30,631 nucleotides of DNA from a virus. Made by a program: the position numbers and the translations under genes. Shown here piece after piece: positions 3,893-30,628 of this stretch. The DNA lies in the IMG/VR virus record IMGVR_UViG_3300037247_001493, positions 1-30,631 of that record; one strand, 5' to 3'. Numbering within the stretch: the first letter of the stretch is position 1; each line of letters opens with the position of its first letter. The notes below the pieces were generated by a model. It did not search any database and had not been told where the DNA came from. It saw only the letters and a list, made by a program, of their open reading frames with translations.

Positions 3893-4186
3893 TTACGAGA
3901 ACCTCACCAAGACTTCAAACGTATCTTGGGCACTGAGTACCCCTTGGCCGTCTGACAACGTGACGGTGTACTCGACTCTGTATGTACCCACCTCGTCCGT
4001 CACGCTGGTTGCAACCTGGTATGTGGCCTCATCGGCACTAACGGTCATGGCAGCGGCGTTTACTCGCAGGGTGTTTCCGACCGCATCCCACACGCTGACC
4101 GTGGCTGAAGTAATTGCGTGTTTCTTCCCATTCAGGGTAGCGCGGATACCTAGATTCACGTTGTCGGCAGTGTAGTAGTTAGGCAT
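3893..4186 (-). CDS. Small beta-sandwich virion protein
   Basis: This gene encodes 97 aa (MPNYYTADNVNLGIRATLNG to FEVLVRFS). The strand pattern, with phrases such as ATVSVWDAVGN and VGTYRVEYTVTLSDGQG, suggests one Ig-like or BppU-N-like sandwich. It is a stand-alone version of the kind of domain found at the N-terminus of the 432-aa protein at 8148-9446. Its stop codon is immediately followed by the ATG of the 424-aa gene. It probably acts as an adaptor or linker in the tail fibre complex. I see no catalytic residues, and the family assignment is by pattern only. Confidence 0.7.
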   Translation of the reverse strand: MPNYYTADNVNLGIRATLNGKKHAITSATVSVWDAVGNTLRVNAAAMTVSADEATYQVATSVTDEVGTYRVEYTVTLSDGQGVLSAQDTFEVLVRFS

Positions 4187-4197
4187 TTCGCCTCCGG

Positions 4198-4392
4198 CTA
4201 TACTCCACGGCTATCAGGGATCAGGGGCACTTCGCGAGTCTCCTCTATGATGGTCAGCGCGCGCCCGTCTTCTATGACGGCTACTAGGCGCGCGTCTTCT
4301 ATGACGGGCAGAGTGGGTGGGTGGACCAGCACCCCAGGGGGCACGGTTGCGGCCCCCTGGGATAACAGCATTATCTGCGCAATGATACCCAT
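4198..4392 (-). CDS. Short repeat protein (IEDxR-type repeats)
   Basis: This gene encodes 64 aa. The N-terminal 20 residues are hydrophobic (MGIIAQIMLLSQGAATVPPG). The second half consists of three to four imperfect 9-11-residue repeats: PVIEDARLVA, VIEDGRALTI, IEETREVPL, IPDSR. The DNA repeats too (cttctatgac on the plus strand around 4270 and 4297). Short beta-strand repeats of the form x-V-x-x-E-x-R-x-x are seen in small structural proteins of many environmental phages and may form a solenoid stalk; that is inference. It sits between small tail genes. The start is the first ATG, after the stop of the upstream gene. Confidence 0.65.
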   Translation of the reverse strand: MGIIAQIMLLSQGAATVPPGVLVHPPTLPVIEDARLVAVIEDGRALTIIEETREVPLIPDSRGV

Positions 4393-4395
4393 TCT

Positions 4396-4668
4396 TTACC
4401 CCGCAGTCAGAATCTTGGTAACGGCTTCCTTCAACTCATCAACCGTCCAGGGCTCCGATGAGGGGATTTTCCATCGCACGAGTGCCTTAGTGTACCTGCG
4501 CTCCCCCTCTTTCCTGGCATGGATGGTGATGTGCCATGTATCTGTTGGAAGATCATAGACCGTCCCCATGAGCACCGGCAGTGGAGTATGTCCTTTTCCA
4601 GTCCTCAAGACTTGCTGGTCACACCACGGCATAACTTCCTGGATGACCTTCTTCATGACTTCCTTCAT
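4396..4668 (-). CDS. Hypothetical protein in the tail cluster
   Basis: This gene encodes 90 aa (MKEVMKKVIQEVMPWCDQQV to KEAVTKILTAG). I do not recognise it. It starts with an amphipathic basic helix, has a central strand-rich part (DTWHITIHARKEGERRYTKA) and ends in a helix, suggesting a compact alpha/beta fold with no signal peptide or membrane segment. The ATG lies 3 bases after the stop of the 111-aa gene, and the gene ends just before the 64-aa repeat gene. Its place in the fibre cluster suggests a structural or assembly role, but nothing in the sequence proves that. Confidence 0.65.
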   Translation of the reverse strand: MKEVMKKVIQEVMPWCDQQVLRTGKGHTPLPVLMGTVYDLPTDTWHITIHARKEGERRYTKALVRWKIPSSEPWTVDELKEAVTKILTAG

Positions 4669-4671
4669 GAC

Positions 4672-5007
4672 TCACGCTCCAAAGGTGAACTCCGCTGAAC
4701 CGTGTCCGTATGTCCAGAATCGCTGGGAGTCATCTTCCCACTCCTTCGTCGCGGTCTGGTCCACGAACTTGAAAACGCCGCGCTTGCAGGTGTCATCGGC
4801 ACTATTGACAATCTGTGTGTATAGGCCTTCGCCAAGATGTGTTGTATCTGTCGCGTCCGTGTTGGCGAGGGCGCCGCCATCCTTTGTGAGTTTGATATCG
4901 CCGGTGGCGAATGTCACGGGCGTGCTCTCGTAGTCAGTTGCGCCGGCATCTATAAGAGGTAACTCGAAAGCATTCGCTACACCGTACTTGAACAGGATGT
5001 CCGACAT
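4672..5007 (-). CDS. Small tail-associated beta protein
   Basis: This gene encodes 111 aa. The layout is TFATGDIKLTKDGGALANTD, GEGLYTQIVNS, KFVDQTATKEWEDDSQRFWT and a closing YGHGSAEF. This matches a small beta-sandwich family I know only as hypothetical virion proteins of environmental phages (GD-x-K-x-x-K-D-G-G-A, then a G-x-Y-x-x-x strand, then DQ-x-x-K-x-W-E-D). It probably provides an attachment or collar module next to the depolymerase. The ATG overlaps the stop of the lyase-like gene as TAATG, which argues for coupled expression of the two. The family call is from memory and was not searched. Confidence 0.75.
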   Translation of the reverse strand: MSDILFKYGVANAFELPLIDAGATDYESTPVTFATGDIKLTKDGGALANTDATDTTHLGEGLYTQIVNSADDTCKRGVFKFVDQTATKEWEDDSQRFWTYGHGSAEFTFGA

Positions 5008-6539
5008 TACCGCACTCCTCGGCCCATGCCACGGGCCATGCCACTCCCCATCTTATCCAGCCGCCAGCGTATCTTGGTCCCGTGCAGGAAGTGCTCGATG
5101 AACGGGATGTCATAAGCGTCAGCCTTGGTTGGGCTTGCAACGTAGTCGATACTAGGGTCAAGCCCGTTGTCTTCCAGCCACGTGTCAGGGAGACTGTCGC
5201 CCGACGTGTCAGTCCAGGGTGTGCCGGCAGCGGGGGAAGGAGCGCCACCATAATCGTCAGGATGGTCCCTCGCCGACTCGGTGCTCGGCCCTGTCCCGTT
5301 GGTGATGTGGTCGACGATGTCGCTGTCGATGACATCTTGAATGTCGGAAAGGGTGCCATCAGCCTGAAGTTGATGCTGCGCCCCACAATCTGTTAACAGG
5401 TCAGCCCGTGAATCGACAGCGGACTGGATTCTGATCGGGACCAGAGGGTCGGCTAGGGGTGACTCACGCTGCCAGCCAGAAGGAAGTTCTTCCCCGGCAG
5501 TATAGAAATTCAACGTGGTATAACCGTGTTCAAAGAGAGCCCACTGGTCGGCATTGGGAGTAGAGCTTGGTGGGTGAGAGCCAAATATATTACCACTCAC
5601 ATAGAAACTAGCATCGACCGTCCACTCTATCTGGTTCGCCCTCCGGGATGCGCGGTACTCAACAAAGCTTGAGCCGTTTGAAAAGGGGCCTTCGGTGTAA
5701 TGATTGTTGATGTAGTCTACCTCTGGCCCTCCCGCACCGCCTTGGTCCCCATCTTTAAAGTTGTAGATGACATTGTTAACCCATTGGACACCTTGAGCGG
5801 CGATGCGCGGGTTTCGGTCTTCGTTGTGGGCGAGGATATTATGGTGACCAGAAATGCGGTAAGTCAACGCCACAGGAGGCTCGCTGTACAAGGGGTCGTT
5901 ATCTTGATCGCGCCCAAGCAACATCCCTTTGCTATGAGTCTCCAACCCCTCTGAGAGGAAACAGCGTTGGAGCGTAACGTCATAAGTGTCTGTGCCACCA
6001 GATGCCAGCTGTAGGACGTAAACTTGTACTACCTCGTCATTCCCCCACTGCATAGATAGATGGTCGATGATAATGTCGTGGCCACCATTTATGCCCATAC
6101 AGTCCTGCTGGCCAGGCGTACCCTTCGGTGCGCGAATCCGCATGTACCTCCAGACAATGTTGTGCGCCGACCCGTCACGGTCAGTGGAATATGCCCCTAT
6201 CCCATATGTCTGTATCCCGCCGCCAGGCGCAGTCTGCCCTGCGACGTAGATACCGTCAGTGGCAATTACAGGACCCGCCCCCGTGATGGTTCCACCCGTG
6301 GTGAAGACGATGATGTCCAGCTTACCTGCCGTCACCTGGTTCGTCAGGATGTCGGCAAAGCTACCAGCACCGCTACTGTTGGTATTCGTGACCTTGTGGA
6401 CACGAATGTCGGTCCGGTCATAGGTCGATAAGGCCAAAGCACCATGTCCCTCTGCGCCGGGGAAGGCGATGCGCTGCCAGGCCGCACCCGCGTTGGCTTT
6501 GACCTTGTAGCCGCTTGAGTCCAGTATCCCTGCCGCCAT
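5007..6539 (-). CDS. Pectate-lyase-fold protein, probable virion polysaccharide depolymerase
   Basis: This gene encodes 510 aa. It has the hallmarks of PL1-like pectate lyases with a right-handed beta-helix: AFPGAEGHG at 25-33, IVFTTGGTI at 77-85, VAGQTAPGGGIQTYG at 99-113, WRYMRIRAP at 130-138, IIIDHLSMQWGNDE at 156-169, HHNILAHNEDRNPR at 232-245 and WVNNVIYNF at 253-261. The acidic WGNDE and the RNPR arginine lie where calcium-binding and catalytic residues are expected. Near residue 450 there is a DTSGDSLPDTWLEDNGLDPS motif like the calcium-binding dockerin or thrombospondin-type repeats of secreted bacterial lyases. There is no signal peptide, as expected for a virion protein. The substrate is probably a uronate-containing capsule or matrix glycan (inference). 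The basic tail MGSGMARGMGRGVR is odd. Confidence 0.88.
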   Translation of the reverse strand: MAAGILDSSGYKVKANAGAAWQRIAFPGAEGHGALALSTYDRTDIRVHKVTNTNSSGAGSFADILTNQVTAGKLDIIVFTTGGTITGAGPVIATDGIYVAGQTAPGGGIQTYGIGAYSTDRDGSAHNIVWRYMRIRAPKGTPGQQDCMGINGGHDIIIDHLSMQWGNDEVVQVYVLQLASGGTDTYDVTLQRCFLSEGLETHSKGMLLGRDQDNDPLYSEPPVALTYRISGHHNILAHNEDRNPRIAAQGVQWVNNVIYNFKDGDQGGAGGPEVDYINNHYTEGPFSNGSSFVEYRASRRANQIEWTVDASFYVSGNIFGSHPPSSTPNADQWALFEHGYTTLNFYTAGEELPSGWQRESPLADPLVPIRIQSAVDSRADLLTDCGAQHQLQADGTLSDIQDVIDSDIVDHITNGTGPSTESARDHPDDYGGAPSPAAGTPWTDTSGDSLPDTWLEDNGLDPSIDYVASPTKADAYDIPFIEHFLHGTKIRWRLDKMGSGMARGMGRGVR

Positions 6540-6815
6540 CTAGTTAAACGTCCTCCCGAAGAAGCGCTTGCGCTTGAAAATACCAGACCGGTATCCGAGG
6601 GCGGTCTGAGGCTGCTGCTCTACGATTGCGCCGGCAGCCACGATGCCCGTGTACATGCCCCAAAGGTGCTGTCTGTCTAAGTTGGAAACGCTCCCGTCCG
6701 AGAATGGTAAAATGTGGTCATCGGCGCTACAGAAGTTCCAGGCCGATAGGCGATCAGCTAAATCAGTGTCACTCGTATCCAGTTCATTTTGTATGAATAT
6801 CGGTATAAGCGGCAT
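6540..6815 (-). CDS. Hypothetical protein upstream of the lyase-like gene
   Basis: This gene encodes 91 aa (MPLIPIFIQNELDTSDTDLA to KRKRFFGRTFN). I do not recognise it. The middle is acidic and serine-rich, while the C-terminus is strongly basic and aromatic (GIFKRKRFFGRTFN). No transmembrane segment is convincing. The stop TAG is directly followed by the ATG of the lyase-like protein, and the start lies 4 bases after the upstream stop, so it is tightly embedded in the fibre operon. It could be a small chaperone or linker for the neighbouring beta-helix protein; this is only a guess from position. Confidence 0.65.
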   Translation of the reverse strand: MPLIPIFIQNELDTSDTDLADRLSAWNFCSADDHILPFSDGSVSNLDRQHLWGMYTGIVAAGAIVEQQPQTALGYRSGIFKRKRFFGRTFN

Positions 6816-6819
6816 GGCC

Positions 6820-8148
6820 TTAGAATATCTCTCGCCAGGTCAGTGACCCTTCCACAGTCGCGGCAGATACACCGCCGATAGGTCTAACAGCGAGCACAAC
6901 TGTCCGTAAAGTCGTGCCATCTATAGCAACTCCCAAGGCCAGAGCACTTGCTAGCTCACCGCCACCCGAACCTTGCCCCGACCCACCTCCACCTGTTTCA
7001 ATATATCCGCCGTCCACGATTACGCCGCCCGTGAGCGTGTTGGCGGTTGCACCAACAGCCGTTTGGACAGCGCTATTAGCGAGATCACTATAGGTAAAGG
7101 TCCCGGCTACCGTAGGGTTGAATACCAATAACCACTCAAGGAGTTCGCTGGCTGTGTGTACCTGCATAGCGGCCTTGAGAAACTTGATAGTAGCGCCGAC
7201 ATGAGTAGCTTTTAGCCGAACACCTACTACAGCAAAGATGGAGTTCTCTGCGTTGGTAACTACTCCCACTCCGGCAGTCGAATGGTATCGGACGATCCCG
7301 ATGTCGTCCGTCCCACCTTCCGATATTACCGTGCAACAAATGACTCGCATTGAGCAGACGCCGGAATCAGTGGTCGTGACGATCTGGTAGCGAAGGGGGA
7401 GGTTCGGTGTAGAGGACCACGGAATTGTAAGGGTGTTCGCCACCTCGACTTCATGAACATAGACTATGCTGCCCTCTATCTCAAACCCAAAGCGCACGCG
7501 CCCTACGGAGAGCCACTGGAAATCGATCACAAATATCTGGGCCTTCGTCACGTTTAGAGTGAATCCGGAAGGATTGGCAGCGTCATCTCCCCCGTCTAAG
7601 GTATCGAGATTCCAGCTAGTTTGCGCAACAGTCGTATCTACTGCGCTCCCTGAATCTTTCGTCCTGGTGGTGATGCCTATCGTACCTGCATCAGATTCAA
7701 AGAAAGCCCCGTTATCGTCGTCGAATAGACCTATGCGGCGCTCACAGCCGGTCTTGACACCGCTGGCAAGCTCCAACACGCCCGTCATGAGGATAAGTTG
7801 CGACTTCCCGGGCTGATAGTTAAAGCGTCGGAATGTTTGTCTAGTGCGCAGACCGGCCGTGGTGTTGGTCGAAGTAAAGTCGATATACGGTTTGTTGGCG
7901 GTGGGGGTGGTCGTCGCCATTGTGCCTGATTCAAGCTGCTCATCCCAAAATAGCGGCGCGCTGTCAGCACCCAGGAGCTTGGAGTCAAAGATTGTAGTTG
8001 GCTCAGATACACGTAAACGCCCAAAGGCATCTACAAGAGGACTATGCGCGGTGAGGCTCTCTAGCTGCACCTTCTGATACTTAACCCCGCCACGGTCGTC
8101 AGCGGCATATACATCGCCGGTTCCTGGGAGGGTTGTGTTATCAGCCAT
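6820..8148 (-). CDS. Beta-rich tail fibre / receptor-binding-type protein
   Basis: The gene encodes 442 aa when started at MADNTTLPGTGDVYAADDRG. I chose ATG 8148 over a GTG three codons earlier because GGAG lies 4 bases upstream and it forms a TGATG overlap with the previous stop. The N-terminus (YQKVQLESL, VDAFGRLRVSEPTTIFDSK) is a pattern I know from tail proteins of environmental phages. The middle has a lectin-like jelly-roll look (FVIDFQWLSVGRVRFGFEIE). A glycine hinge (GGGGSGQGSGGG) near residue 385 separates a C-terminal strand-rich tail ending SLTWREIF. The role is probably surface recognition; no enzyme motif is seen. Confidence 0.8.
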   Translation of the reverse strand: MADNTTLPGTGDVYAADDRGGVKYQKVQLESLTAHSPLVDAFGRLRVSEPTTIFDSKLLGADSAPLFWDEQLESGTMATTTPTANKPYIDFTSTNTTAGLRTRQTFRRFNYQPGKSQLILMTGVLELASGVKTGCERRIGLFDDDNGAFFESDAGTIGITTRTKDSGSAVDTTVAQTSWNLDTLDGGDDAANPSGFTLNVTKAQIFVIDFQWLSVGRVRFGFEIEGSIVYVHEVEVANTLTIPWSSTPNLPLRYQIVTTTDSGVCSMRVICCTVISEGGTDDIGIVRYHSTAGVGVVTNAENSIFAVVGVRLKATHVGATIKFLKAAMQVHTASELLEWLLVFNPTVAGTFTYSDLANSAVQTAVGATANTLTGGVIVDGGYIETGGGGSGQGSGGGELASALALGVAIDGTTLRTVVLAVRPIGGVSAATVEGSLTWREIF

Positions 8149-9446
8149 CAGCTCCACTTCTCTCTGGTAAATGTGGTCCCGTCGTCGCTTATGGCTGCGG
8201 TCCCTATATCAGCATCGTCCGCATCGTTCCGCGACGTCTTGGTCGTAGAGGTCTGCGTTCCTTTGTTGCGACTGAGCGCCTTGAGCCACATAAGCGCGTC
8301 CTTAATCGAGGTCGTGGCCGCCACAACGCCCGAGGGCTCGGCGTGTGTATCAGTCTCGAGCACATCCACGACCTCTTCGTTAATGCTGGTCCGAGTCACC
8401 GCCGCATCCTGAGTCAAGATCGTGGTCGTGCCGTTATCCGTGATGGTGCAGTTGCCCCGAACATGAATCTCTAGGCTGGTGCAGCTTGCATCAATGATGA
8501 GTTGGCCAGCGGGACAGTCATAGCTCATCACATCGTTCAACCTGGCATTCTTGATCGTTAGTCCACCAGAATAATTCCTCACGTTCACCGTTGTTGCTCC
8601 CCCAGCACCAGGGAAGTTTAGGTCCGGCGCACCTCCGCCAGGAGTGGCACTGCTACAGTTGATAAAGCTGTGATTCGTGCCCACCCTCAATGTGATGTCG
8701 CCCGTGAGTTCACAGTCACGAGCGACAATCTCCGCAGATAGAAGGGCCTGGAGCTGGCATCTAAACGCTTGCATGAACTGAGTGCCACCCTGGGTCCCAG
8801 TCAGGATGAGACTCTCAAAGTGGCTGTTGTCCACATCCTGAGAGTCGAGGGTTACTTTGTTCATAATGCCGATGCCGATGAACTCGTACCCCTCGTAAGT
8901 CTGGGCTAACGTTAGTTGAGTATCGTTGATGAAGTAGAAGAATTGGGAGCCGAGGGAAGCGGCAATCGTCGTGGCAGCCGCGATGGTGGAGACGGGGTTG
9001 TCCGGAGTCCCGTCTGTTCCAAGTACGGTGTTGGTGTTCGCGGCCCCGTCGTCTATCCAAACGCCGAGGCCGTGGGGACCAACGTAGGCCATCTTGTCAA
9101 TTTGAGCTGCGCCCCGCGTAAACCGGTTCTCAATGCTGAACTCCGCCACCACATAGCCGACAACGCTTATGCCAGCTACGGTCCCCGTCGTTATGACCAC
9201 CTGGTAATCCTGACCAGTCGCATAGAAGGCGTCACTTGAAAGATCAACGAGGACATTGTTTTTTCCGGTGACAGAATCGAAATCCACCGTGAGCGTGATG
9301 CCCGCCGCGCTCTGGGTTACATCATTTCCCTTGTAGACGCTGACGACAGGCGTGCCTGCCAATGTGGTAGGAACGCCATTCGCGGCTGTCGTAAACTTGA
9401 TGTTGAGAGTCGCGTAATCCTCAGCGTAATCCCCAATGTAAGACAT
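8148..9446 (-). CDS. Tail fibre protein with beta-sandwich N-terminus and beta-helix-like body
   Basis: This gene encodes 432 aa. Residues 1-110 (DYATLNIKFTTAANGVPTT, VVSVYKGND, ITLTVDFDSVTGKNNV, FYATGQDYQVVITTG, VAEFSIENRF) form a module common at the N-terminus of environmental phage fibres and similar in layout to BppU-type attachment domains. Residues of about 130-340 contain strand-turn repeats (VSTIAAATTIAASLG, LILTGTQGG, LTIKNARLNDVMSYD) suggestive of a right-handed beta-helix without obvious catalytic residues. The C-terminus is acidic and threonine-rich (TSRNDADDADIGTAAI). It probably attaches by its N-terminus and contacts the host or matrix with its body. Translation is coupled to the next gene by TGATG. 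Confidence 0.82.
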   Translation of the reverse strand: MSYIGDYAEDYATLNIKFTTAANGVPTTLAGTPVVSVYKGNDVTQSAAGITLTVDFDSVTGKNNVLVDLSSDAFYATGQDYQVVITTGTVAGISVVGYVVAEFSIENRFTRGAAQIDKMAYVGPHGLGVWIDDGAANTNTVLGTDGTPDNPVSTIAAATTIAASLGSQFFYFINDTQLTLAQTYEGYEFIGIGIMNKVTLDSQDVDNSHFESLILTGTQGGTQFMQAFRCQLQALLSAEIVARDCELTGDITLRVGTNHSFINCSSATPGGGAPDLNFPGAGGATTVNVRNYSGGLTIKNARLNDVMSYDCPAGQLIIDASCTSLEIHVRGNCTITDNGTTTILTQDAAVTRTSINEEVVDVLETDTHAEPSGVVAATTSIKDALMWLKALSRNKGTQTSTTKTSRNDADDADIGTAAISDDGTTFTREKWS

Positions 9447-9466
9447 AAGGTGAAGCTATTCCTTCA

Positions 9467-9676
9467 TCACCAGGAGTGCGTACTCGTGGCCCGCTTGTGG
9501 CTCACGACCTGCTGGTCCAGGTATGCGTAGAGGTGGTCGACCAGCGCATCGGGGCCGCTCGTGCCCGTGTGGTCTTCGAGCCAGGCGTCGGCAGCGGTTA
9601 GCTGCGAGTCCGTCACAGGGTCGTTGTTGCCCGTCAGGGCGAACAGGTCTTTGATATTCTGCTTCGTCGCTGCCAT
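9467..9676 (-). CDS. Hypothetical small protein of the virion cluster
   Basis: This gene encodes 69 aa (MAATKQNIKDLFALTGNNDP to HKRATSTHSW). It is mostly helical, with an acidic middle and a histidine-rich end. A clear Shine-Dalgarno (CTAGGAGAGCAGT) precedes the ATG. I do not recognise the family. Helical 60-80-residue proteins in this position can be fibre chaperones or head-tail connectors, but nothing here distinguishes those roles. Confidence 0.7.
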   Translation of the reverse strand: MAATKQNIKDLFALTGNNDPVTDSQLTAADAWLEDHTGTSGPDALVDHLYAYLDQQVVSHKRATSTHSW

Positions 9677-9685
9677 ACTGCTCTC

Positions 9686-10348
9686 CTAGGCGGAAGTAAT
9701 AGTTTCTACGCCTGCCGCTGTCTTGAACTTCAGCTTATCCTCAGAGGCGTCATACCAAATCTGGGCCTCTACAGTACCATCGGTGTCGGTGATGAGCAGC
9801 TTCAGTTGCTTCGTCAGGTCAACGTAGGTACTGGGCGAGAGGATTATTCTCCCTGCCGTCGATGACATCTCCGTCTCCTCCTGGAAGGCGAAGGCGCCAG
9901 CGGAGATGTGTACTCTAGCGCTACCTGCTGTAGACAATCGCATAGTGTCAGCAGGCGAGTCTGTACTGCCAAAATAGATGATAGAGCCACGAATGGCCTG
10001 TGCGGGTTCACCGAAATAGATGGCCCTTGCCTGATTGTTGGGGCTTAGCAGGGTGAGTGCAACAGTGCTAGAACTTTCAAGAATTAGAGTTGTCTGGTTG
10101 TTTGCACTAACAGTTCCAGCACTACCATGCCAGAGATGCACTGCTGACCCCATACCCGCATCAGGCGAAGGGAACGAGGCCGCACCCGCAATCATCAGCC
10201 CGCCAGAACCCACCGTCACTAAGTCCCAGAAGTTGTCGGTGCCGTCGTTATAGATTTGCGAGCGGTTGCCGGTCCCGAACGAGAGCTTCACGTCGTTGTC
10301 GAAGCCCAGCGCAACGGCGCCGCCTGGCCCAACATCGATAATGGTCAT
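9686..10348 (-). CDS. Beta-rich fibre or decoration protein
   Basis: This gene encodes 220 aa. The sequence is a series of strands with G, S and T turns: VALGFDNDVKLSFGTGNRSQ, FWDLVTVGSGGLMIAG, VSANNQTTLILESSSTVALT, IYFGSTDSP, VHISAGAFAFQEET, then AQIWYDASEDKLKFKTAAGV near the end. The closing W-Y-D-A-S-E-D-K-L-K-F-K strand hairpin is common at the C-terminus of phage fibre proteins. No enzyme motif is visible. The ATG overlaps the upstream stop as ATGA, so expression is likely coupled to the 72-aa coiled-coil gene. A trimeric fibre or head decoration role is inferred. Confidence 0.78.
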   Translation of the reverse strand: MTIIDVGPGGAVALGFDNDVKLSFGTGNRSQIYNDGTDNFWDLVTVGSGGLMIAGAASFPSPDAGMGSAVHLWHGSAGTVSANNQTTLILESSSTVALTLLSPNNQARAIYFGEPAQAIRGSIIYFGSTDSPADTMRLSTAGSARVHISAGAFAFQEETEMSSTAGRIILSPSTYVDLTKQLKLLITDTDGTVEAQIWYDASEDKLKFKTAAGVETITSA

Positions 10349-10563
10349 GATCCAGCATTCACCTTGAGCCGCTTCGTCAGTTCCAGGATTTCGGCATCCC
10401 TCTCCGCCACCATCCTGCGCAGCGCGAAGTTCTCAGCCAGGAATCGTGCGGCTGGCATTGCATTGAACATCGCCTGGAGATCCTGCTCTCCCACGCGAAC
10501 TTCTGCCGTGAGAGCCTCGATTGGTTCAGGCATCTTGGCGTTACGATTGTTCTTGTTTCCCAT
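10345..10563 (-). CDS. Small helical (coiled-coil) protein
   Basis: The protein is 72 aa from MGNKNNRNAKMPEPIEALTA. I reject the earlier ATG at 10596 because it lies in the loop of a GC-rich hairpin, whereas ATG 10563 follows GGGGTAAGAGCA. The second half, FLAENFALRRMVAERDAEIL followed by ELTKRL, is a clear amphipathic helix with heptad spacing. It probably oligomerises and may pair with the neighbouring fibre protein, whose start overlaps its stop by ATGA. No recognised family. Confidence 0.68.
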   Translation of the reverse strand: MGNKNNRNAKMPEPIEALTAEVRVGEQDLQAMFNAMPAARFLAENFALRRMVAERDAEILELTKRLKVNAGS

Positions 10564-10575
10564 TGCTCTTACCCC

Positions 10576-10609
10576 AAAAGGCCCCGGGCCCGTCATTGGG
10601 CTCAGGGCC
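10576..10609 (-). terminator. GC-rich hairpin followed by four U: possible intrinsic terminator or attenuator
   Basis: In minus-strand RNA the arms GGCCC-tga-GCCC and GGGC-ccg-GGGCC fold around an AAUGAC loop and are followed by UUUU. It occupies the only sizeable gap in this part of the operon, between the 270-aa and 72-aa genes. The stem has an internal loop and the U-tract is short, so termination is probably partial. Confidence 0.5.
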
Positions 10610-10642
10610 TCCGTTCGTCCTCGTAGATGTCTTCGCCCTACG

Positions 10643-11455
10643 TCAACGAACTAACCAGCTCAGATTGATCGTGCTGTCCGTACCTGTACTCCAGAACTCG
10701 ATGCCGCCCACGCTTCCGTCCATCGGCACGGTGTACTCGCGTAGGTCATCCACATGGAAGGCGTCTGCGTCGCCCGTATCGTTGGCTACCACCTCAAGCA
10801 ACGCGGCTATCTGCTCTATCTCCACCGCGTCCAGCAAGGTGTCAGTCACGATACGCAACCAGTAGAGCTTCATGCCCTGTCCTGGGTACGAGGGCTGACC
10901 CTTGTGCAGGTCCATCGCTACCCAGGTGCCTCTTCCTGGAACCGTGTCAAACTCAAAATTACCGCTAGCCTTCCCAAACGGGGCACCACCAGAGGTTGTG
11001 TCTTCCGTGATGGCCGATGCTCTGAATCCACGCGAACTACTGCTGTACTCTCCAGTCAAGGTCGCGGCGTTGTTATTCAGGATGGTGCTGTCGATGGTGA
11101 ACCTAGCTCCTGCGATGGGGGCCACGGCGCCTATGTAGAGGAAGTCGTCGGTGTCCAGCGTGAACTGCACAATGCCCACCTGGGCACTGTCCAAGATGGC
11201 TCCAGGGCTGTCGCCAGGAGCCCGAAGGTCATGCCAGGCATTCGCAGACACGTCATGCCACCACACCTCCGCGATTCGAGGCGTGAGGCCTATGCGAGAG
11301 TCCTGAGCGGCCGATTCTGCAAGAAATTCGTCGGCGCCAGCACGCAGATTGATCGCCCGTCTACGCTCAGGATTCGTAACGACATCTTGCAATCCTGTCA
11401 GGGGCGCAATGCCCCTCATCTTGCGGATGCCCCTATCTTTAACCGTGGTAGGCAT
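10643..11455 (-). CDS. Virion structural protein, unrecognised
   Basis: This gene encodes 270 aa. The N-terminus is helical (LTGLQDVVTNPERRRAINLR followed by AGADEFL). The rest is strand-rich, with WWHDVSANAWHDLRAP, VGIVQFTLDTDDFLYIGAVA and MKLYWLRIVTDTLLDAVEIE. The aromatic-rich strands around residues 190-210 resemble a jelly-roll face. No enzymatic signature or membrane segment is seen. By position (several genes after capsid, before the fibres) it could be a neck, tail-tube or baseplate component. It is followed by the hairpin at 10576-10609, so it may end a transcript. Confidence 0.72.
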   Translation of the reverse strand: MPTTVKDRGIRKMRGIAPLTGLQDVVTNPERRRAINLRAGADEFLAESAAQDSRIGLTPRIAEVWWHDVSANAWHDLRAPGDSPGAILDSAQVGIVQFTLDTDDFLYIGAVAPIAGARFTIDSTILNNNAATLTGEYSSSSRGFRASAITEDTTSGGAPFGKASGNFEFDTVPGRGTWVAMDLHKGQPSYPGQGMKLYWLRIVTDTLLDAVEIEQIAALLEVVANDTGDADAFHVDDLREYTVPMDGSVGGIEFWSTGTDSTINLSWLVR

Positions 11456-23851: not shown

Positions 23852-25639
23852 CTACTGCCTCGCCGGGTTCTGAGTAGCGCCATCAAGGCTTTGCCTCAAC
23901 GGATTTGTCGTGCTCTCTGGGATAGGCTGGCCCTCGGCAGGGTTGGGAACCTCGTTGGCGCTGCGAGCGCGGTCTGTCTGCTGTTGCTCAAGCTCTCTGG
24001 CCCGCCTGAGCTCGTCCTCGACACCCAATCTGGCCGCTACATCGTCAGCACGCACTTCAACCAGTGCGGGTCTGCGCCACAGACGAGTCTCGTCGATCCT
24101 CTGACTCCAGCCCGTCACATCCTCTGAGTGGTGCTGGCGGATGAAGTCTTCCTCGCTCATCAGGCCGAGCTCGAAGTCTCGCCTATCGGACTCCTTGGCC
24201 TGAAGTGCCAGCGCGGGGTTGATATCGGAGAACGTGATCCGCACACTGGTATCGTGCCCTATCTCCGACGCCTTCAGTATCTTGCCGTTAATGCCAATCT
24301 GCCCGAACGTCGAGAGTTCGTCCAGCACCAGCACCATCTGGAGCATCATTTGTCCCCCGATGCTGGCCAGATGCTCTAGTTGGATAATGGGGGTCTGGAA
24401 CTGGCGATTGGCGGCCTGAGACTGCAATGCGTGCTGCCCCACCGTGCTCACACCCTGCTGTCGGAAACCACTCAGGATGTCGGTGAAGGTGCCGCGATCA
24501 ATGCCTAAATCAATCTCTTGGGCCTGTTGGAACATCCAATTCTGGACCTGGGGGGTTTGCACAACCCAAACGCTATCCTTATTGGCTTGAACGTACCCGC
24601 CTACCTTTTCAGCCTCCGCCAGCTCCTCGGGGGAAAGCGTCTCAGTACCAACCAGGGCAAAGGCCGCGTCCACGCCGAGTTTGTGACGGGCGGCGGTACC
24701 CTGGGCGGCCATGCGGAGCTCATCCTCAACGGGCTCCAACATACCTCGCGCAATGAAAGCGGGATTGAAACCGCCCTTCACACTACCGTTGTGGGGCATG
24801 ATGCCCGCACGGGCGTAGGCATGAGCGAACCGCACGAAGCCCCAGGGATTGCGTTCCGTCCAGAGAATCTCGCCGTCCGCCAGTTTGACCGAGTGGTAGT
24901 CCTTCGTCCAGTAGTGAACGAGGTTCACGGTGTCAAACGGACCCATGTCTTTGTGGTCGACGACATGGAACACGTTCACGTTCTGCCGACGCACACGCGG
25001 TCCCGGATTAGCCTTCCGCCTCGTCAGCGTCTCCAGCTCATGGGCAGGCATCCCTTGCAGCTGTATCGCGCAGGGGGGCTGTTTCTGCTCCGGGTCCATG
25101 AGCACCGTTCGGGGATCGGGGGCTCGGATCCTGATTGGGTTCCAGTTGTCCTTCTGAACTCGAAATCTTACCTCTCGGGCGGCAAACTCGTCATCCGTCT
25201 CACCCTTCTCGCGTTTCGGCTCTACCGGCCTAGACTGCCAGTCGAATCCGACCTCGATAATGGCGTACTGGTAATGGATGAGGTGGAGCCACATCTGCGA
25301 GAAGGGCAGGACCATTTCGCGCAGCGCAGAGTCCTCCATGATGGTTCGGCCCGCCACCTCGATGCTGTCCGCGCCCTCCGTCTGGTCGGGTTTGCGCGAC
25401 ACACGGTGCCAATTGGGTGTGAAATTGATGAGCGTATCTGCGGCGCGATCCACGATGGCGGTGGGTCGTGACGGATACGTCTTGGGCCTGTCGGTGTGAT
25501 GGGGCCAGAGGTCGTAGTTTCGGTGGTAAAAGGTGTCTCGAGTATCCCAACCCGTGTGGCACGGCCCCCACTGGTCACGCAGATGGACCCGCGCTTGGTC
25601 TATGAACGCCGCCGTGGGCTTCTCGTCGAAGTTAGGCAT
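23852..25639 (-). CDS. Portal protein
   Basis: This gene encodes 595 aa and comes soon after the large terminase, as usual. The N-terminal helix region (AFIDQARVHLRDQWGPCHTG), the strand-rich wing (NWNPIRIRAPDPRTVLMDPE), and the DHKDMGPFDTVNLVHYWTKD and HAYARAGIMPHNGSVKGGFN segments fit portal proteins. Helices follow (MLEPVEDELRMAAQGTAARH, then SGFRQQGVSTVGQHALQSQA), and a long Gln/Arg-rich C-terminus (LRRARELEQQQTDRARSANE) would form the barrel or crown. It forms the dodecameric ring through which terminase pumps DNA. Length is normal for the family. The call rests on context plus overall pattern, with no single diagnostic motif. Confidence 0.86.
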   Translation of the reverse strand: MPNFDEKPTAAFIDQARVHLRDQWGPCHTGWDTRDTFYHRNYDLWPHHTDRPKTYPSRPTAIVDRAADTLINFTPNWHRVSRKPDQTEGADSIEVAGRTIMEDSALREMVLPFSQMWLHLIHYQYAIIEVGFDWQSRPVEPKREKGETDDEFAAREVRFRVQKDNWNPIRIRAPDPRTVLMDPEQKQPPCAIQLQGMPAHELETLTRRKANPGPRVRRQNVNVFHVVDHKDMGPFDTVNLVHYWTKDYHSVKLADGEILWTERNPWGFVRFAHAYARAGIMPHNGSVKGGFNPAFIARGMLEPVEDELRMAAQGTAARHKLGVDAAFALVGTETLSPEELAEAEKVGGYVQANKDSVWVVQTPQVQNWMFQQAQEIDLGIDRGTFTDILSGFRQQGVSTVGQHALQSQAANRQFQTPIIQLEHLASIGGQMMLQMVLVLDELSTFGQIGINGKILKASEIGHDTSVRITFSDINPALALQAKESDRRDFELGLMSEEDFIRQHHSEDVTGWSQRIDETRLWRRPALVEVRADDVAARLGVEDELRRARELEQQQTDRARSANEVPNPAEGQPIPESTTNPLRQSLDGATQNPARQ

Positions 25640-26064: not shown

Positions 26065-27639
26065 TCAGAAGCTCGGCGGTCGCGCGACCACCTTTTCTCC
26101 GGCCCCCATCACGGAGCCCACCCAGGGCTTCATCTGGAGCGCGATCCCGACCGCCATGGGATAGTCGTCGTTCGCGCCCGCTCTCGCCTCGGGCCTGGAA
26201 TCCTTGCCGGCTTTGATCACATCAAGGAATTGCTGGAGCCCCGCACGGTTGAACACCACCAGCGCGCCCTTATCGACCTGGGGCTTCATGTCGTTCCAGA
26301 TGTCCCACCGGTTGACGCCATCGGTGTGCCAGCCAGGGTCCTCCCTCTGGTGGTCCACGCCGCCCACTATCTTCTTTGTGTGCATCCGGAACAGTTTACG
26401 ATATCGTAGGTCGCGGGCCTTGCGTGCCGTGTCGCGCCCGTATCCGATATTCTCGATCGCCCAGAGGGGCCATCGGTACATCTCGAGCAGCTTCATGGAC
26501 CAGTAGACCAGATCGTCGGACTCGATCTCATTAGACATAATATCGGCCACAACGTGCATGGTCGTCAAGTCCAGCACTGCGGTGACGGAGTAGTCACGCC
26601 CCACGCCCTCCGAGGTGTCGGTGCCCGCCGCGTACTTGTGGCCAAGCAGGAACTTCTCGTAGATGTTGAGCGGCCCTTCACTCAGCATGGGCTGCCGGCA
26701 CAGCGTCATGAGGTACTGGTTGATGACGTCGATGTCGAAGAAGGCTCCCGCCTTGGGTGGCGCCAGCATCTCCTCTTCGGTGCGAGGATAGTTCTGCTCC
26801 ATGTAGAGTTGGGGCGTCATCCCCTTCAGATCTTCGTCGGGGATTGAGGCCATGGTGCGCTCGTACCACGCCTCATCCCTGCCCGGGCGGGCGAACACGC
26901 CCACGAACAGCTTTGTCCAGCCGCCCTTACCGGCCTGGGCCTGCCGGTAGATGGACTGGAACATCGACGTGGCTTTTCGCTTCTCTACGGTGCTGAGTAC
27001 CACAACCTGACCGCCTGCGTCGGTTGTCGGCTTGATCGCGGCCATCCCCTCCGCGAGATATTCATGATTATCAGCTTCATCCATGATTGCGATGGTGGCG
27101 GTGAAGCCGTGACCGGCCTTCTGCGTGCTGGGCAGAGCGTGAATTTCGGAGTCAGATCCTTTGAAAGAGAGATGTTCAGTACTTTGAGCGTCGAGGGGGA
27201 GCTGCCACGACTCGGGCAAGTTCTCGTAAACGTATCGAGCCTTCCTCATCAGCTCCGCAGCTTGTTTCTGACCCTCGGACTCCATCAAGGAGAGGGCGCC
27301 GTCATGGAACACGGATAGCCAGGCTACAAAGGAGGCGACAAGCCAGGACCAGCCGACCTGACGGGACTTGCCCACGACGGTCTGGAGGTCTTCGGGCCTG
27401 ATTTCGGCCTGACGCCCCTCGGCAGTCATTTTCCAGGGGCGTTCGAGCTGTTCAGCGCCCTCAATGAGATGGGGCCACATCTGGAACTTAATCCGCCCCC
27501 CAGTGGGCGCACCAGCCTGTGGCGGCTCGAGAATCCAGACGTGATCGAGGAACTTGACGAAGCTCCGCCCGGCCAGCGCCATCTCGCCCAGGGGCAGGGC
27601 CTGCTCGACCAGGTCGGGTGTCTGGGTCAGGTCAACCAT
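26065..27639 (-). CDS. terL: Terminase large subunit
   Basis: This gene encodes 524 aa. The ATPase half has the Walker A-type GKSRQVGWS at 90-98, Walker B TIAIMDEAD at 182-190 with the catalytic glutamate in MDEAD, and the coupling strand VVVLSTVEK at 212-220. The nuclease half has AAGTDTSEG at 337-345 (Asp 341), IENIGYG at 395-401, and an acidic pair in NDDYPMAVGIAL near the end, matching the RNase H-like metal sites. Together they show a complete motor that cuts concatemeric DNA and pumps it through the portal. Length is normal for the family. The start overlaps the upstream 63-aa gene by 13 bases and has no good ribosome site, so it is probably translationally coupled. Confidence 0.96.
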   Translation of the reverse strand: MVDLTQTPDLVEQALPLGEMALAGRSFVKFLDHVWILEPPQAGAPTGGRIKFQMWPHLIEGAEQLERPWKMTAEGRQAEIRPEDLQTVVGKSRQVGWSWLVASFVAWLSVFHDGALSLMESEGQKQAAELMRKARYVYENLPESWQLPLDAQSTEHLSFKGSDSEIHALPSTQKAGHGFTATIAIMDEADNHEYLAEGMAAIKPTTDAGGQVVVLSTVEKRKATSMFQSIYRQAQAGKGGWTKLFVGVFARPGRDEAWYERTMASIPDEDLKGMTPQLYMEQNYPRTEEEMLAPPKAGAFFDIDVINQYLMTLCRQPMLSEGPLNIYEKFLLGHKYAAGTDTSEGVGRDYSVTAVLDLTTMHVVADIMSNEIESDDLVYWSMKLLEMYRWPLWAIENIGYGRDTARKARDLRYRKLFRMHTKKIVGGVDHQREDPGWHTDGVNRWDIWNDMKPQVDKGALVVFNRAGLQQFLDVIKAGKDSRPEARAGANDDYPMAVGIALQMKPWVGSVMGAGEKVVARPPSF

Positions 27640-28560: not shown

Positions 28561-28636
28561 TGGTCGGAGTGGAGAGGCTCGAACTCCCGGCCTCCGCGTC
28601 CCAAACGCGGCGCTCTGCCGTCTGAGCTACACTCCG
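28561..28636 (-). tRNA. tRNA-Pro (anticodon TGG)
   Basis: A complete cloverleaf can be drawn by hand. The acceptor CGGAGTG pairs perfectly with CACTCCG, and the discriminator A and an encoded CCA follow. The D-arm GCTC/GAGC has an 8-base loop, and the anticodon stem CCGCG/CGCGG carries loop TTTGGGA (anticodon TGG, reading CCA and probably other proline codons). The variable loop is AGGCC and the T-arm is GGGAG-TTCGAGC-CTCTC. The C1-G72 pair and A73 are identity elements of bacterial tRNA-Pro. It is 8 bases downstream of tRNA-Ser, so both are probably cut from one transcript. Confidence 0.96.
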
Positions 28637-28643
28637 ATACTGA

Positions 28644-28726
28644 CGGAAGGTGAGGGAATCGAACCCCCGAGCCCGTTAAGGCCAGCTCTTTTCGAGAGAG
28701 TTTCCTCGACCAACCGGACACCTTCC
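28644..28726 (-). tRNA. tRNA-Ser (anticodon CGA)
   Basis: This is a class II tRNA of 83 bases. The acceptor GGAAGGT/ACCTTCC is perfect, with discriminator G as in serine tRNAs. The anticodon loop CTCGAAA gives CGA, reading TCG; the stem ACTCT/AGAGC has one A-C mismatch at its base. A long variable arm (GCC, TTAAC loop, GGC) follows, then the T-arm GGGGG-TTCGATT-CCCTC. CCA is not encoded (TCA follows), unlike the neighbouring tRNA-Pro. It probably supplements host decoding of TCG codons. Confidence 0.93.
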
Positions 28727-28797
28727 GTCTATACCGGCCCCCAGGGATTGTGCCCTACCCCTGAGACTTACGCCAGCCCCTTCCTTTGGCTGCCCTG

Positions 28798-30067: not shown

Positions 30068-30628
30068 CTATTGACCAGAGTCAGCGTCTTCGCTCGTCTC
30101 CAGCACACGCCCTTCGCCCTCAATCGCCTTGACCCTGGCGTCCCTGAGCGCCTTGCCCGCGTCTACCAAGGCCTGCAAGTCCGTTAGGCTCATGCCATCC
30201 AGTAAATGCCAGTCCAATCCCACCACACCGGCGTGCTCAACCCGATTGACGAACATTCCGAGGTGTTTGCCCAGTAATTCGAGTGCTTTGTTGGCTACAG
30301 AGCCCTCGTATTCCCACGTTCCGGTGGGTTTTCCATTGCGATCCAGGACCGGTGAGGCTTGCATGGCGCGCTCTACGTTGGTCATTAGGCTGGAGAGGAC
30401 ATAGGCGGCGTTGAGTTCGGCCACATCGGCGTATCTGGCCTGTAGCTCAGCGATGCGTGGGGCAACTGTGGGGTTTTGAGCTAAGAGAGTGGCCTCGTGC
30501 TGAATGGTCTGATCGCTGGAGCCTTGAGCGTCATACGCTAGTCTATAGGCGTCGGCTTGAGTTTTGTCTGACGAAACCAGCTGGGCGAAGCGTTCTTGTT
30601 TGGCGGTGAGTTTAGCCCTAGCTATCAT
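30068..30628 (-). CDS. terS: Terminase small subunit
   Basis: This gene encodes 186 aa. The N-terminus (KLTAKQERFAQLVSSDKTQA, then DAYRLAYD, and later AQNPTVAPRIAELQAR) is the helix-turn-helix pattern of the Terminase_2 small-subunit family: K-Q-x-x-F, then A-Y-R-x-A-Y, then P-x-V-x-x-R-I. A helical middle (ALELLGKHLGMFVNRVEHAG) would make the oligomeric ring, and an acidic tail (GEGRVLETSEDADSGQ) could contact the large subunit. It recognises the packaging site and recruits TerL. The ATG is preceded in frame by TAA, so the protein is complete. It is separated from terL by 2.4 kb of small genes and tRNAs, which is unusual. Confidence 0.92.
   Translation of the reverse strand: MIARAKLTAKQERFAQLVSSDKTQADAYRLAYDAQGSSDQTIQHEATLLAQNPTVAPRIAELQARYADVAELNAAYVLSSLMTNVERAMQASPVLDRNGKPTGTWEYEGSVANKALELLGKHLGMFVNRVEHAGVVGLDWHLLDGMSLTDLQALVDAGKALRDARVKAIEGEGRVLETSEDADSGQ

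Follow-up and report, generated by a model that had tools for sequence, protein, structure and literature searches.

The locus considered here raises the question of why a phage should encode, amid its late structural genes, a protein that resembles the pectate lyases of bacteria. The window, i.e., the whole stretch of DNA that was analyzed, is an entire IMG/VR record, a linear fragment of 30,631 bases from an uncultivated phage. A first-pass annotation had recognized a PL1-type lyase at positions 5007-6539 without giving its strand; the ORF lies on the minus strand, where it is uninterrupted, complete and fills these coordinates exactly with a protein of 510 aa, and the plus strand across the same interval is interrupted by stops. 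We regard it as reasonably probable that this protein is an active PL1 subfamily-2 (PL1_2) depolymerase, which attacks a host exopolysaccharide or capsule that contains uronic acid, either within the particle or released along with it. The fold, the catalytic arginine, the intact frame, the position in a structural operon, the absence from relatives and the bacterial ancestry are given by the computations themselves; the lyase activity, the substrate and the attachment to the particle are what we infer.

At the sequence level, the protein matches PHROG 27797, a 'pectate lyase' family (E = 3.5e-25), and the pectate lyase of PDB 9buj (E = 1e-13), a similarity to pectate lyases that is far beyond chance. 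Every one of the signatures quoted by the first-pass annotation (APGGG, DHLSMQWG, RNPR, NNVIYNF and DTSGDSLPDTWLEDNGLDPS) is found in it, and the usual GGRGG motif is missing. The NCBIfam PelZ model also recovers it (E = 2e-13), below the equivalog cut-off: with 49.9 bits against a curated threshold of 840 for NF041900, an identity as PelZ was rejected. Its bacterial and phage relatives score 95-198 bits against the same model, and on these profile scores both they and the window lyase are placed in the PelZ superfamily rather than in PelZ proper. The Pfam PL1 model PF00544 has no match in the window lyase; this silence decides nothing, because the model likewise misses the relatives L045 and L066.

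An AlphaFold2 model built from 18 viral sequences (pTM 0.81, mean pLDDT 73, with poor stretches that include residues 1-11, 322-352 and 494-510) adopts a PL1-type right-handed beta-helix across residues about 25-400, followed by a helical/loop C-terminal region at about 400-487. Structure prediction, proposed earlier as a check on the lyase assignment, thus returned a lyase fold. The top match by both sequence and fold is PfPL1 of Pseudoalteromonas fuliginea (PDB 9buj; Z 43, 391 residues aligned, rmsd 2.5 Å), the first PL1 subfamily 2 enzyme to be solved (PMC11229556). The two have the entire fold in common, down to the helical C-terminal region and a pseudo-EF-hand, at 24% identity over the aligned residues; however, PfPL1 is secreted and belongs to a pectin-use locus, whereas the window lyase is phage-borne and lacks both a signal peptide and the GGRGG motif. 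The second-best structure is VexL of Achromobacter denitrificans (PDB 6fi2; Z 34, 311 residues), ahead of many pectate and pectin lyases with Z of 26-31. VexL has the same fold and an identical RNPR motif, but it is of another subfamily (PL1 subfamily 13), is 17% identical over the aligned residues and aligns only with window residues 23-399. It is periplasmic, works within a capsule-building system and cuts a poly-N-acetylgalacturonate (Vi-type) capsule.

The active-site residues were assessed over 137 aligned rows from phages and bacteria. R242, the first residue of the RNPR motif (residues 242-245; 5805-5816, minus strand), aligns with PfPL1 Arg220 and is invariant (137/137), and the D159-H160 pair of the IIDH motif (6060-6065, minus strand), which is conserved across PL1_2, is kept in 136 of the 137 rows for both residues. 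R245 is variable in the family, being an arginine in 65/137 rows. Arg220 is the residue that, according to the authors of the PfPL1 structure, would abstract the proton in what they propose to be metal-independent catalysis (PMC11229556). Most probably, R242 would remove the proton at C5 of a uronic-acid unit, and the ensuing beta-elimination would cleave the polymer and open the slime or capsule of the host. We note that the second catalytic residue named in that paper, 'Arg235' (PMC11229556, section 3.2), does not fit the numbering that yields Arg220, by which position 235 is a glutamate. An arginine is present at 235 in VexL, where it falls on window R245; hence, the label may be in VexL numbering.

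The C-terminal motif DTSGDSLPD (residues 444-452; 5184-5210, minus strand) had been likened in the first-pass annotation to a dockerin/thrombospondin-like repeat. That likening was not sustained: the motif corresponds to the pseudo-EF-hand of PL1_2 (PMC11229556), and in the profile alignment the PfPL1 segment DKNKDGIND falls on it. In PfPL1 this element holds a structural calcium (PMC11229556). No dockerin or TSP3 domain is matched by Pfam in the window lyase, and close relatives hit the bacterial TSP3 model (TSP3_bac) only below its cut-off. The aspartates D444, D448 and D452 are kept in 132, 130 and 126 of the 137 rows, respectively, and we accordingly see DTSGDSLPD as a built-in part of PL1_2 enzymes and, judging from the alignment, a putative calcium site. 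Loss of the catalytic arginine or of the calcium aspartates had been named as the outcome that would count against a lyase; R242 and all three aspartates are retained, and the assignment to PL1-type lyases is borne out by the fold together with the arginine.

The genomic setting bears on where such an enzyme would act. The minus-strand operon runs from the genes for the small (30068-30628) and large (26065-27639) terminase subunits down to the left end of the window. The lyase sits inside its packed late structural part: its ATG is abutted, with zero gap, by the stop of the upstream gene for a 91-aa protein (6540-6815, minus strand), and its own stop codon overlaps the ATG of a gene for a 111-aa protein (4672-5007, minus strand). 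Two genes upstream lies a 445-aa virion structural protein (6820-8157, minus strand; PHROG 1645, E = 1e-75), and related proteins occur in cyanophages and in Puniceispirillum phage HMO-2011. The earlier description of the lyase as sitting among fibers holds insofar as the neighbors are phage structural genes, none of them a proven fiber. The next protein, of 432 aa (8148-9446, minus strand), has a swappable N-terminal domain and is a candidate spike; its AlphaFold2 model (pLDDT 39) is unusable. Locus L006 encodes a spike-like protein whose C-terminal part is 52% identical to the 432-aa protein and whose N-terminal domain has a weak similarity (E = 2e-5) to the 111-aa protein. This is a hint, no more, that the 111-aa protein might be a free-standing anchor and that anchor and enzyme might form a split spike. 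As a separate observation, genes for tRNA-Pro(TGG) and tRNA-Ser(CGA) lie side by side on the minus strand (28561-28727) between those of the two terminase subunits.

Comparison with a sister phage, L022, points to the lyase being variable cargo. The portal (81% identity), capsid protein (90%) and a 424-aa protein (66%) occur with others in the same order in both phages, but the L022 counterpart of the 445-aa gene is only 38% identical, and a single 263-aa gene (PHROG 8198, of unknown function) occupies the place of the lyase, the gene for the 91-aa protein and four small genes in the window. The block at 3893-11455 (minus strand) is mostly replaced in L022, and the genes tested across it have a third-position GC of 0.56-0.67, as against 0.73-0.84 in the terminase, portal and capsid genes; the value is back to 0.73 in the 424-aa gene. 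We take this mosaic segment to be an exchangeable host-interaction block. The lyase was likewise not found in the fetched stretches of 17 viral loci with a relative of the 445-aa gene, which were retrieved via that gene or via the capsid gene; in L006 and L010 homologs of the 91-aa protein come after the 445-aa structural gene, and no lyase is seen there.

Scans with peptide patterns from the window protein alone came up empty in both viral and genome contigs; the relatives were found by alignment-based scans, and with a profile 19 lyase loci were recovered from viral contigs. Several of these adjoin terminase-, portal-, capsid- or tail-like genes, as judged from their sequences, and this recurrence in phage structural regions speaks for a depolymerase. 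The viral lyases are stand-alone or lie within proteins of 800-2,100 aa. Among them, gp095 of Cellulophaga phage phi10:1, annotated as a 'pectate lyase', is encoded directly after proteins shown to be structural by mass spectrometry; like the window lyase it is phage-borne and in or next to a structural or variable region, but identity is about 30%, the start resembles a signal peptide and the position in the tree is different. Such starts also occur in, e.g., L024, L025, L033-L035, L037 and L039, in which, as in phi10:1, the most hydrophobic 12-residue stretch of the first 40 aa averages 2.3-3.3 on the Kyte-Doolittle scale. The corresponding value for the window lyase is 0.58, in keeping with the earlier remark that it has no signal peptide; L023, L026, L028, L031 and L032 are similarly without one. 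Three unannotated faecal 'Bacteriophage sp.' entries (L003-L005; GenBank MT836244, MT836880 and MT835984) were stripped of their phage label in the careful tree: they look like misfiled bacterial contigs, since their lyases bear signal peptides, are in some cases tandem and are nested in Bacteroidota. Phage pectate lyases have already been described as variable depolymerases (PMC7468147, PMC6966330), and those of cryoconite phages, which we liken to the window lyase by description, were interpreted as serving host EPS recognition or as depolymerases (PMC7468147). The window lyase is a new, distant member of this set.

Is the enzyme then part of the virion? Trimeric tailspike depolymerases of Acinetobacter and Klebsiella phages, including 'pectate lyase' tailspikes, are modular, swappable beta-helix capsule openers. 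Like them, the window lyase is encoded with virion structural genes; unlike them, it has no N-terminal virion anchor and trimerization module, but is a single-domain protein built like a monomeric bacterial lyase. With only about 24 residues ahead of its core, no anchor, trimerization or chaperone domain was recognized in it. These features, and the monomeric state of PfPL1 (PMC11229556), would suit an enzyme that is released free at lysis and clears slime around lysed cells outside the particle, a variant of the favored reading as to catalysis and a rival to it as to location. We judge this unlikely, though worth serious consideration: the gene is packed among structural genes, and the overlapping 111-aa gene may, on its weak resemblance, supply an anchor. 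Hence, despite the missing anchor, the position of the gene places virion association slightly ahead of release.

A careful tree of 65 rows, from which the partial lyase L157 was omitted because of its long branch, bears out the bacterial ancestry proposed for the lyase. The window protein and L042, which comes from a Gemmatimonadota MAG, form a pair (bootstrap 99, SH-aLRT 88), and L140, also from Gemmatimonadota, joins next with weak support (83/70); the end branch of the window lyase is 1.6, and such long branches call for caution in reading the tree. Six changes of the phage label are needed on this tree, and supported branches force no fewer than four of these; a single phage clade appears in no bootstrap tree and is rejected by the AU test (p = 0.013). 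Under partial sampling, two Gemmatimonadota genomes gave scores of 3e-75 and 3e-66, as against 3e-41 or weaker for the best in Acidobacteriota, Pseudomonadota and Actinomycetota.

The company kept by these bacterial relatives is informative as to substrate. Four Gemmatimonadota lyases lie beside exopolysaccharide or capsule genes and not in pectin-use loci, although the loci are few and one of them, L042, a 3.7-kb contig, has a single informative neighbor, of the asparagine-synthase type. L140 is flanked by genes for a glycosyltransferase, sulfotransferases, a Bac_transf sugar transferase, a nucleotidyltransferase and an asparagine synthase; L155 by two glycosyltransferases, two sulfotransferases, Bac_transf, Poly_export (Wza type) and GNVR/AAA (Wzc type); and L157 by an epimerase, a Wzi capsule-assembly protein and an asparagine synthase. 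The group (99/95) of another phage lyase, L024, contains enzymes from Methylobacter (L057/L158) and Nitrosomonas (L046) along with L146/L159, and the neighbors in it are Bac_transf with UDP-sugar epimerases, a glycosyltransferase with a GalU-type nucleotidyltransferase, or glycosyltransferases with a sulfotransferase. A BLAST screen for EPS markers (5/85) was set aside as evidence, its references having been drawn from the tested loci; it also missed the EPS neighbors of L046 that Pfam later found. Given that its closest bacterial kin are encoded in clusters for making slime or capsule, the enzyme most likely acts not on plant pectin but on a bacterial surface polysaccharide akin to the product of such a cluster.

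This bears on the alternative that the lyase is an auxiliary metabolic enzyme, which the infected cell would produce and release so that the host profits from the breakdown of plant pectin in soil. The characterized PL1_2 enzymes are all active on pectin-type homogalacturonans (PMC11229556), and studies of soil viruses list pectate lyases among auxiliary genes (PMC6460857). Nevertheless, we consider it improbable: the window lyase lacks a signal peptide, its gene belongs to the late structural operon, no other pectin-use gene was recognized in the window, and the Gemmatimonadota enzyme that does lie beside SusC/SusD (L156) branches elsewhere in the tree, away from the relatives in polysaccharide-building clusters. 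Quite improbable, too, is a receptor protein that keeps the fold as a polysaccharide-binding adhesin with little or no catalysis, for, frequent as glycan binding is among beta-helix folds and variable as R245 and other residues are in the family, R242 and D159/H160 have been kept on a long branch (1.6), along which a protein that only binds could well have dispensed with them.

Returning to the depolymerase that we favor, its kinship suggests a broader scenario, which we advance only tentatively: phages might have repeatedly recruited little-noticed PL1_2 lyases kept in bacterial EPS-building clusters for trimming or releasing the cell's own slime, thereby turning a slime-maintenance enzyme into a key to that slime. 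Gemmatimonadota would be represented by the window lyase, with L024 as a second, independent case next to EPS-linked enzymes of Methylobacter and Nitrosomonas. VexL is a precedent for a PL1-fold lyase in a capsule system; for kinship between a phage tailspike and a beta-helix EPS enzyme, the precedent is WceF (PMC7949094). In a limited search we found no description of this kinship between phage and EPS-cluster lyases, which makes it a useful new lead: what is frequently recorded in viruses as an auxiliary gene for pectin degradation may instead encode an enzyme that cuts the host's own coat, a concrete and testable guess as to substrate. If true, the bacterial gene beside which a phage lyase branches would point to a host group and a polysaccharide, aiding host assignment and the prediction of depolymerase specificity for uncultivated phages. 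For the window itself, an attempt to guess the host from phage genes failed: the portal-type protein (23852-25639, named by position and length) was matched by tblastn to none of 50,697 phage records, which places the phage in a lineage without close cultured relatives, and 119 Gemmatimonadota genomes gave no match either, in a search run without a positive control.

Some further observations concern the wider family. Lipoprotein- or signal-peptide-like starts are seen in L024, L025, L033, L034, L035, L037, L039 and L029 (phi10:1), several of them among tail-like genes, and such N-termini are unexplained for proteins destined for the particle. The 2116-aa ORFs of L030 and L038 (IMGVR_UViG_3300032277_000222 and IMGVR_UViG_3300005748_000031) each have two or more segments that match the lyase profile (envelope 216-1659) and probably contain several lyase-like domains each. 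Finally, PL1_2-type lyases occur in exopolysaccharide or capsule clusters of both Gemmatimonadota and Pseudomonadota (L140, L155, L157, L158 and L159), several of which include sulfotransferases; these five might possibly be trimming enzymes of sulfated slimes.
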